From: Paenibacillus sp. DCT19
GTDB lineage: Bacteria; Bacillota; Bacilli; Paenibacillales; Paenibacillaceae
DNA length: 64,000 nt
NCBI RefSeq assembly: GCF_003268635.1
Contig: NZ_CP029639.1
Span: 4,599,501 to 4,663,500, forward strand
Direction: 5' to 3'
Translations under genes and position numbers: made by a program
Notes under the pieces: generated by a model
Databases searched by the model: none
Told to the model about the DNA's origin: nothing
The model's input: the letters and a program-made list of their open reading frames with translations, nothing else
Shown here: positions 4,673-57,988 of the stretch, piece after piece
How the letters are laid out: every line of letters starts with the position of its first letter
Position numbering within the stretch: the stretch's first letter is position 1

Positions 4673-4857
4673 GAAAAGATAGGTTTAGTGCAAAGGAGGC
4701 GCTCCGGGGACGGATCGGTCTTTCGATCGCTGTTATCCCCAGATTTTTTGGATTCCCTTTCTCGAAAGGGAAAATCCGGGGATAAAGGCGAACGCTCCGC
4801 TTCTTCAGATCCGATTACGTCCCCTCCGCTCCGTTTGCACGAATCTCCGTATCTTTT
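4673..4857. repeat. Long imperfect palindrome, repeat family B/C, copy C1
   Basis: The element is a large inverted repeat. Outer arms GAAAAGATA (4673) and TATCTTTT (4850) are nested around GTGCAAA (4688) and TTTGCAC (4834), then GGGGAC and GTCCCC, then CGGATC and GATCCG. The centre (about 4733-4810) is a hairpin in which TTATCCCC-n-GATTCCCTTT pairs with AAAGGGAAAATC-n-GGGGATAA. This core recurs nearly base for base at 39389-39473. No reading frame or transposase is associated. It lies upstream of the minus-strand methyltransferase gene. Confidence 0.85.
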
Positions 4858-6170: not shown

Positions 6171-6190
6171 TGCTTCTGAAACGATATAAG

Positions 6191-6367
6191 TGCGTGTTCA
6201 AAAAGGTCGGTTTTCAGTACCGAGAAGATGGCATGAAGATAGAAATGGAGTAGCGGAGCGTAGGCAAAACTACGTGAGCAACGAACATTTCGGCTGAATT
6301 TCATCTTCGATGCTGAGATGCCTTCAGGCATCCATCGTAATCAAAAGCAGACTTTTTGAACAACCTC
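6191..6367. mobile_element. Non-coding MITE-like repeat, family A copy 1
   Basis: A 177-bp non-coding element starting TGCGTGTTCAAAAAGG and ending CTTTTTGAACAACCTC, so its ends are inverted repeats (TGTTCAAAAAG / CTTTTTGAACA). It is flanked by the direct repeat TATAAG (6185-6190 and 6368-6373), as expected of a target-site duplication. Internal hairpins GATGCC-TTCA-GGCATC and CGTAG-n-CTACG are conserved in the copy at 55233. There is no reading frame of note. Confidence 0.8.
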
Positions 6368-6406
6368 TATAAGTTCAACTAAAGAAAGTTTAGTCGCACC
6401 TATATA
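6368..6406. repeat. Minimal family-B inverted repeat (copy B3)
   Basis: TATAAGTTCAACTAAA is followed after only five bases by TTTAGTCGCACCTATA, an inverted copy with a few mismatches. The same end sequence bounds the 88-bp element at 57901 and the long one at 39339-39526, so this looks like an end-only remnant. Its first six bases also form the right flank of the family-A element next door. Confidence 0.65.
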
Positions 6407-26177: not shown

Positions 26178-26344
26178 AGTCCTACATCTATATAAACGCA
26201 GCATCAACCACTCTAGAAGAGGCTGATGCGCGGTCATACGACGTCAGTTGTTATAACTGATATAGGACGTGGTTTACTTCCATTATATTCGGATGAAGCT
26301 AGAATGTGCTTCCATCGACAGTTAATAATCGAAACGTTCTACAA

Positions 26345-37019: not shown

Positions 37020-37318
37020 CAAAAAAACCTCAGCATCCCATAGCGTTTGCAGCGCTAGGGACGAGAGGTTGAATTCCCGTGGTACCACCCTAGTTAGCGG
37101 ACGAACGTGCTTCGTCATCCACTCCCTTTGAACCTGTAACGGCGGTTAACCGATGCGGATTTCCATTCCTGCAACCACCGAATAGACATCGGTTAAGTAT
37201 CGGATGGTGTAATCACCGCATTTCTCCAAGGCGAGTTCATGAAATACTGTCAATCGGCTTGCACCAACCGCCGACTCTCTGTCATGTACAGAATTCACTA
37301 CTGATCCTTATCATCGAA
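37020..37318 (-). promoter_or_regulatory. T-box leader riboswitch of leuS, Leu (CUC) specifier
   Basis: On the minus strand the T-box sequence AGGGTGGTACCACGGGAATT (37091-37072) sits between the antiterminator region and a long terminator stem (CCTCTCGTCCCTAGCGC / GCGTATGGGATGCTGAGG-like, 37020-37070, then TTTTTTT). In Stem I the specifier loop reads GAA-CTC-GCC, with CTC at 37235-37233, a leucine codon. Uncharged tRNA-Leu would pair and allow leuS readthrough. Confidence 0.95.
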
Positions 37319-37340
37319 ATATGTATACAATATCGGAAAC

Positions 37341-39338: not shown

Positions 39339-39526
39339 TATATAACTCAAAAATATTTACACTTGCCACTCCGATGACAGAACAACCTTCCGATCGCTGT
39401 TATCCCCAGATTTTTTTGATTCCCTTTTCCAAAGGGAAAATCCGGGGATAAAGGCGAACGCTTCGCTTCTTCACGTTATTTCTGTCTTCTCCGTTCTCGT
39501 GTAAAGAATTAGTTGAACTTATATAA
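39339..39526. repeat. Long palindromic repeat (family B/C copy B2) in the yqeM leader
   Basis: The element has a left arm beginning TATATAA-CTCAA (39339) with TTTACAC, TCCG and GACAGAA further in, and a right arm that is its inverted counterpart, GACAGAA-CGGAG-GTGTAAA ending AGTTGAACTTATATA. Between them is the TTATCCCC / GGGGATAA core hairpin (39389-39473), almost identical to the one at 4733-4810. The right half also matches the element at 57901. No coding capacity. Confidence 0.8.
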
Positions 39527-53482: not shown

Positions 53483-53580
53483 TACGTGTTCAAAAGGGTG
53501 GTTTCTAGTATCGAAAAGATGGGATGAAGCTAAAAATGGAGTACTGGATCGTAGGCCAAACTACGTGAGAGACTATTGGT
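53483..53580. mobile_element. Truncated MITE-like repeat, family A copy 2
   Basis: The first about 100 bases match the full copies at 6191 and 55233 (TACGTGTTCAAAAGGG, then ATGGGATGAAGCTA-AAATGGAGTA and CGTAGG-n-CTACGTGAG). The right half with the closing inverted end is missing and replaced by unrelated sequence, so no flanking duplication can be defined. Confidence 0.75.
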
Positions 53581-55201: not shown

Positions 55202-55232
55202 TAAAATATAAACCAATAAAAATATTAGTAAA

Positions 55233-55411
55233 TGCGTGTTCAAAAGGGGCGGTTTTCAGTACCAAGAAGATGGGATGAAGCTAGAAATGGAGTAGCGGAG
55301 CGTAGGCAAAACTACGTGAGCAACGGACATTTCGGCTGAGTCCCATATTCGACGCTGAGATGCCTACAGGCATCCTACGTAATCAAAAGCGCGAACTTTT
55401 TGAACAACCAC
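55233..55411. mobile_element. Full MITE-like repeat, family A copy 3, inside the nirB leader
   Basis: A 179-bp element starting TGCGTGTTCAAAAGGG and ending CTTTTTGAACAACCAC, about 85 percent alike to the copy at 6191 by eye. It is flanked by the direct repeat TAGTAA (55227-55232 and 55412-55417). The hairpin GATGCC-TACA-GGCATC keeps its stem while the loop differs. It lies between promoter and nirB, so it is transcribed. Confidence 0.82.
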
Positions 55412-55447
55412 TAGTAATGTACAGTCTATCCAAGGAGGCTTATACAC

Positions 55448-57900: not shown

Positions 57901-57988
57901 TATAAGTTCAACTAAACTTTTTACACGAGAACGGAGAGGACAGAAATAACGTGTAGAAGCGAAGCGTTCGGCTTTAGTTGAACCTATA
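57901..57988. repeat. 88-bp inverted repeat (family B copy B1) between nirB and nirD
   Basis: Ends TATAAGTTCAACTAAA (57901-57916) and TTTAGTTGAACCTATA (57973-57988) are inverted with one mismatch. The inner part (TTTACACGAGAACGGAGAGG, then AGAAGCGAAGCGTTCG) matches the right half of the 39339-39526 element with the central hairpin deleted. It would form a stem in the nirBD mRNA. Confidence 0.8.

Follow-up and report, generated by a model that had tools for sequence, protein, structure and literature searches.

A short dispersed repeat of Paenibacillus with inverted ends, target duplications and a covarying interior

What moves orphan bacterial repeats such as bcr1, and why do they have a structure? 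A family of repeats in Paenibacillus makes a sharp case of this question: its sites vary from one close species to another, its target is defined, its forms can shrink in place, and its base-pair covariation suggests a task for the folded strand. We analyzed it starting from a stretch of 64,000 nucleotides of Paenibacillus sp. DCT19 (contig NZ_CP029639.1, hereafter the window), which holds two full copies, at 6191 and 55233, and one remnant at 53485. The first copy, G TGCGTGTTCAAAAAG ... CTTTTTGAACAACCTC T, spans 6190-6368 on the + strand; the element proper is 177-178 bp long (6191-6367 here). Its left end of about 38 bp (6190-6227, +) and its right end of about 37 bp (6331-6367, +) are conserved across genera, and the inner part of the left end pairs with the right end. 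Between them, the central helices (6250-6283, +) have covarying pairs, and in their internal loops the letters, GGA facing GA and A facing A, hardly vary. The second full copy lies at 55232-55411 (+), and the remnant is a truncated and decayed copy (53485-53575, +).

A first-pass annotation had described a gene-free, transposable-looking element whose two copies (6191-6367 and 55233-55411) share their ends, have inverted termini and are flanked by the repeats TATAAG (6185-6190 and 6368-6373) and TAGTAA (55226-55231 and 55412-55417, unstranded). The sequence bears out these ends and repeats, and the general description stands, with two fixed inverted ends and independent target duplications. 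Open reading frames overlapping 6186-6373 encode at most 75 amino acids, and none is a transposase by eye. Mobilization in trans, as proposed, is the natural reading of an element with no transposase alongside. Covariance models from Rfam gave no match between 5900 and 6700 of the window, with E values up to 1 or at gathering scores; the only match at gathering scores in the whole window is a T-box leader (37054-37323, - strand). The window also contains a second repeat family, with direct copies at 4702-4780 and 39369-39447 that are 78% alike and an inverted pair at 39449-39510 and 57915-57976 whose 62-nt arms are 92% complementary. This family may be another dispersed element.

How widespread is the element? 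The first-pass annotation proposed to search for the 177-bp sequence in this genome and in related ones, and this reveals that it belongs to a large family dispersed over the genome. With up to three mismatches allowed, a 22-mer taken from the left part of the element has 116 sites in the 6,667,063 bases of the genome, and the reversed pattern has none. A look-up with blastn gave at least 46 matches (the best 40 of 200 candidates were scored), and we collected a total of 123 distinct complete or partial copies. The 65 distinct full-length copies have a pairwise identity of 90% on average and of up to 99.4%. Head-to-tail arrays, with 7-11 bp between the matched parts, occur at loci L027, L081, L072, L085, and L097; the other pairs of the list are separated by 5-6 bp and each represent a longer copy in two halves, not array units. 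At one array site, more units are present in the close relative G077 than in our genome.

The family extends well outside this strain. Matches were found in 26 of the 59 genomes searched. Besides our own genome, these are 21 of the 35 other genomes of the genus and all 4 genomes of a second genus, which belongs to another family of the same order; the remaining 19 genomes had no match. Copies in another genus have conserved ends and a variable interior. Among the matches listed, the named carriers are Paenibacillus species, Cohnella sp. SGD-V74, and Fontibacillus panacisegetis. The search in named genomes gave at least 120 stretches, from which 80 loci were obtained. They include 83 left ends, with a right end at most 700 bp away in 65 cases, absent in 17, and too close to the edge to be seen in one; among the 65, one has a run of N and one corresponds to two adjacent elements, and both were kept in the counts. 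The element is also carried on replicons of P. urinalis and P. cellulosilyticus and on viral-classed contigs, and the named phage records that we searched gave no match. In IMG/VR, a first search returned three stretches, one of which is an element with both ends, and a second search returned nine, all with the left end and one of them already known from the first. Seven of the eight new stretches have the right end and six share one flank. In these six viral-classed contigs (L448-L452 and L454), the copy measures about 215 bp and its left flank is the same throughout, probably one shared insertion. This family accounts for many unannotated intergenic repeats of Paenibacillus and its relatives.

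The length of copies with two ends lies between about 40 and about 330 bp, and the longer ones have extra hairpin modules. In one 307-bp copy of a distant relative, an inserted module (L219, 1669-1739, - strand) resembles the Bacillaceae-1 RNA with 32.9 bits, for a cut-off of 35, and the copies of L209 and L216 have hairpins with UCCU-type loops by eye. The element may thus pick up other structured RNAs. At L334, a 292-bp copy (1936-2227) lies four bases from an epsC RNA (2232-2343) on the opposite strand. In six loci (L161, L162, L164, L175, L176, and L179), a right-end remnant lies directly upstream of the start of a gene that is DUF72-like by eye, beside AGGAGGT; the gene looks the same in all six, and ORFs were listed for L175.

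Evidence of movement comes from the comparison with 800 kb of G077, in which 33 copies or pieces of our genome had both flanks placed. One of them, L029, has an exact empty allele: TTAAA flanks the element on either side, and the empty allele of G077 has it once. The empty alleles of L067 and L024 agree with our flanks except for one or two substitutions, and those of L021, L010, and L014 also agree, with further changes. The reverse case is found in the window, where the empty target site CTTCTAG (26205-26229, - strand) is filled in G077, with one or two substitutions between the two. In other words, the element inserts, as seen from filled and empty alleles in two close species. The two genomes have six full-length copies in common. 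The 55233 copy corresponds in G077 to a form of about 40 bp with the same flanks, which shows that short forms arise in place. We had regarded short forms as proof that the ends suffice for movement, and dropped this argument since shrinkage occurs in place. The copy at 6191 was compared with orthologous NUDIX loci, of which 30 were fetched (one of them our own) out of 75 genomes having the gene. The pattern of the end core is absent in all 29 other loci read, and one of the orthologous loci (L254) has by eye a decayed-looking relative of the element at the site. This relative and an immediate flank that cannot be aligned mean that site 6191 yields no clean empty allele.

What does the element duplicate when it inserts? 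Both of its ends have the inverted core TGTTCAAAAAG, with a weaker inverted similarity out to about 38 bp. The first-pass annotation had claimed 6-bp duplications, and proposed to test whether every copy has them. At the best offset, a perfect 6-mer is found in 27 of 85 full-length copies of the genome; random re-pairing of the flanks, repeated 1000 times, gives one in 3.1 copies on average and in 8 at most. The duplications are thus beyond chance, but analysis of 180 de-duplicated copies (84 of our genome, 65 of named genomes, and 31 from other relatives, plasmid or viral records) gives a length of 4 bp, NNNA, instead of 6. The excess agreement between left and right flanks is concentrated at four positions, with kappa values of 0.54, 0.57, 0.46, and 0.32 in the 85 copies of our genome (at most 0.10 elsewhere) and of 0.33, 0.51, 0.51, and 0.25 in the 65 copies of named genomes (at most 0.03 elsewhere). 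Identical flanks were found at NNN in 90 of the 180 copies, at NNNA in only 84, and at TNNNA in only 75, so that a duplication does not surround every copy; these counts are approximate, because some anchors are possibly misplaced and the units of an array share flanks. Copies that have no perfect duplication look decayed. In the 90 copies with identical NNN, the right neighbor is always T and the left neighbor is another letter in 11, which assigns the neighboring T to the element. The length of the duplication is hence 4 bp by statistics, or 5 if the invariant T is counted. In the copy at 6191, comparison of the flanks places the duplicated ATAA at 6186-6189, inside TATAA, and at 6369-6372 (both unstranded). 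The favored target is CT-NNNA-G, and this preference adds matching letters to the flanks, which makes the repeats appear longer than 4 bp. Given all this, we are very confident that the repeat is a mobile element with target duplication.

The interior of the element is its unexpected feature. The copy at 6191 folds end to end, with -59.6 kcal/mol for the + strand (z of -4.6) and -47.6 for the - strand (z of -2.9). The + strand is the better folder in all 85 copies of our genome and in 31 of 33 relatives, although the means of the shuffles for the two strands, -41.5 and -37.3, indicate that composition explains part of this difference. We derived a consensus structure of 48 pairs from 26 divergent copies, and found changes on both sides in 19 of these pairs. 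Across the alignment, 97.1% of the cells are paired, versus 86.7% in shuffles and 32-44% in slid controls. The number of double-change cells is 134, against 42.8 in shuffles, and the covariation score is 0.320, against 0.134; neither value was reached by any of 500 shuffles. The count of further pair types, 44 against 39.8, was reached by 18 of 500 shuffles and is a weak measure. The structure was derived from the same alignment and the sequences are related, which both favor the structure, but the double changes still lie well beyond the controls. In the central loops, each unpaired letter is the same in 25 or 26 of the 26 divergent copies. When only Watson-Crick pairs are used to choose the structure, which removes the strand bias from this choice, there are 47 G-U cells versus 26 A-C cells, i.e., a moderate preference for the + strand in a strand-neutral test. 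Among 65 copies of our genome, paired positions of the interior diverge by 0.027 and unpaired ones by 0.099, and the variation is concentrated in the apical loops. It is highly likely that the folding of the element is under selection.

In six orthologous resident copies, 32 of 1047 positions differ, versus 45 of 1071 in the nearest flanks, which is no significant constraint (p of 0.17). With flanks of 490 bp, five of the six elements are more alike than their flanks, so that a weak constraint in place may exist. We dropped constraint in place as an argument, since the wider flanks suggested it and the nearest ones did not. No bias of orientation relative to the neighboring genes was found (39 to 47 and 38 to 48), and the argument for a host RNA function from orientation was dropped as well. 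With a simple ORF caller, none of 86 copies lies inside a large ORF. Since pairing is kept and the residents (n=6) have no significant constraint, selection seems to act on the moving lineage.

We searched for the partner that would provide the enzyme, since the first-pass annotation had suggested looking for an insertion sequence with the same termini. None turned up in searches of three Pfam families (PF01609, PF00665, and PF01526) and in filtered pattern scans, whose context filters pass only part of the possible partners. Our genome has one match to PF01609 (L127, IS1182-like by eye), three to PF00665 (one below the cut-off, one IS3-like and one IS30-like by eye), and none to PF01526. Four fetched loci of PF01609 and PF00665 have no end core within one mismatch. 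Outside the context of the family, the core has 17 sites in our genome, against 2 for the reversed pattern, and 71 against 13 when one mismatch is accepted. The 17 loci were read for ends and one of them for ORFs, and the 71 sites were scanned by position for facing pairs. The same type of scan gave matches in 25 of 75 genomes of the genus; 30 of these loci were read for ends and five for ORFs, and they contained short forms, remnants, and host genes, with no transposase by eye. The left 38 bp with a different interior were found in one of the 75 genomes, as a short form. Among the loci fetched for PF01526, L224 has one exact core match, with no second end there. At the border of L127, a stretch resembles the element ends in 13 of 18 letters by eye, which is a lead. 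Two copies of a palindromic hairpin (660-715 and 2255-2290) bracket the IS1182-like sequence of this locus, whose ORF is split in two frames, as if the hairpin had been duplicated upon insertion of this sequence.

Overall, the repeat is probably a non-autonomous, MITE-like DNA element that is moved in trans and whose interior pairing is kept between moving lineages. A putative enzyme supplied in trans would recognize the inverted ends (the core and the similarity out to about 38 bp), and insertion at CT-NNNA-G would duplicate NNNA. As the element starts with G and ends with CT, insertion would rebuild the preferred target at both junctions, which could seed the tandem arrays. We prefer, as a tentative inference, that the hairpin acts in mobility and not in the host: the pairing persists across lineages of the element and the residents show no significant constraint, so that the folded strand in + orientation, as single-stranded DNA or RNA, may be required for mobility. 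A more specific version, in which a MITE requires for transposition, besides its two ends, a folded RNA or single-stranded DNA (with covarying helices, invariant internal loops, and hairpin modules in some copies) and inserts with a stagger at CT-NNNA-G, is rather doubtful as formulated. If the hairpin is needed for movement, this would add a layer to the mobilization of short elements.

Several other explanations deserve consideration. The copies might be maintained by the host as cis-acting RNA elements, scattered over untranslated regions and operons, with mobility having only spread them. The RNA-like covariation, the constant loops, the lack of copies in large ORFs, and the wider flanks, which favor the element in five of six loci, all fit this idea, as does the reported transcription of about half of the bcr repeats in B. 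cereus. We still find it unlikely, given no gene-orientation bias, a comparison with the nearest flanks that is not significant, and sites that differ among close species. The covariation itself could be mutational. Template switching is known to correct imperfect inverted repeats, so that arms may change together without selection, and could mimic part of the signal. Such correction should however remove the mismatched internal loops, which stay unpaired and near-constant in the 26 divergent copies, and the excess of G-U over A-C also speaks against this improbable origin.

The mechanism of movement could also differ from the MITE-like one that we favor. A site-specific recombinase acting through a circular form, with the T-NNN-A block as crossover region, would explain the inverted repeat that adjacent units make, with the right end of one and the left end of the next around a short spacer, and would suit the existence of arrays. 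A mechanism resembling site-specific recombination has been suggested for bcr1. Yet the duplicated letters vary from site to site while agreeing on both sides, as expected for staggered insertion, making a recombinase quite unlikely. The better folding of the + strand (85 of 85 and 31 of 33 copies), the G-U excess, and helices added as modules would be compatible with an RNA intermediate, in which a folded RNA of the + strand would be copied for insertion at a staggered cut. This is very improbable in our opinion, since the strand difference is partly compositional and single-stranded DNA explains much the same. Finally, a miniature element of Tn3 type, with 38-bp ends and a 5-bp duplication, is suggested by the extent of the inverted similarity and by the short AT-rich duplications. 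The recognized Tn3 ends in the loci that we fetched read GGGG...TAAG, and PF01526, present in 19 of the 75 genomes of the genus, occurs among 12 copy-rich genomes (our own included) only in G027. Different ends and this distribution largely refute a Tn3 origin, which is extremely unlikely.

How does the element, which we read as MITE-like, compare with known systems? It resembles MITEs in being short, with inverted ends, a target duplication, and no transposase gene. It differs from typical ones in that no autonomous partner was found in the three families and the pattern scans and in its long covarying interior with constant internal loops, which is not a mere transposon remnant. Tn3-derived miniature elements (TIMEs) share the short duplications and the reach of the inverted similarity, about 38 bp, but the ends differ from those of the Paenibacillus Tn3 loci. 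ERIC-like elements are intergenic imperfect palindromes of more than 100 bp, with no known transposase, and ERIC inserts at TA; our element is alike in being an intergenic imperfect palindrome of this size and differs, by description, in its target and hosts. The mobility of REP/RAYT and IS200/IS605 is tied to a folded single strand, and these systems are not known to produce a target duplication, unlike the Paenibacillus element. In a literature search that covered sources outside most subscription journals and the insertion-sequence databases, we found no description of such a repeat in Paenibacillus, and the single paper containing one or more of six sequence strings is unrelated. A close likeness is with bcr1-bcr3 of the Bacillus cereus group, which are also short, dispersed, MITE-like repeats in many copies. 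They are described there as interspersed repeats of 100-400 bp, often transcribed, with up to 130 copies of bcr1 per genome and an unclear mechanism of mobility. Their mobility is associated with a TTTAT motif, and the repeats are tied to this group. The Paenibacillus element, by contrast, targets CT-NNNA-G and resides in Paenibacillaceae, a distinction from bcr1 at the level of published descriptions. We show here the covariation of a MITE-like repeat of Paenibacillus whose target and hosts differ from those of bcr.
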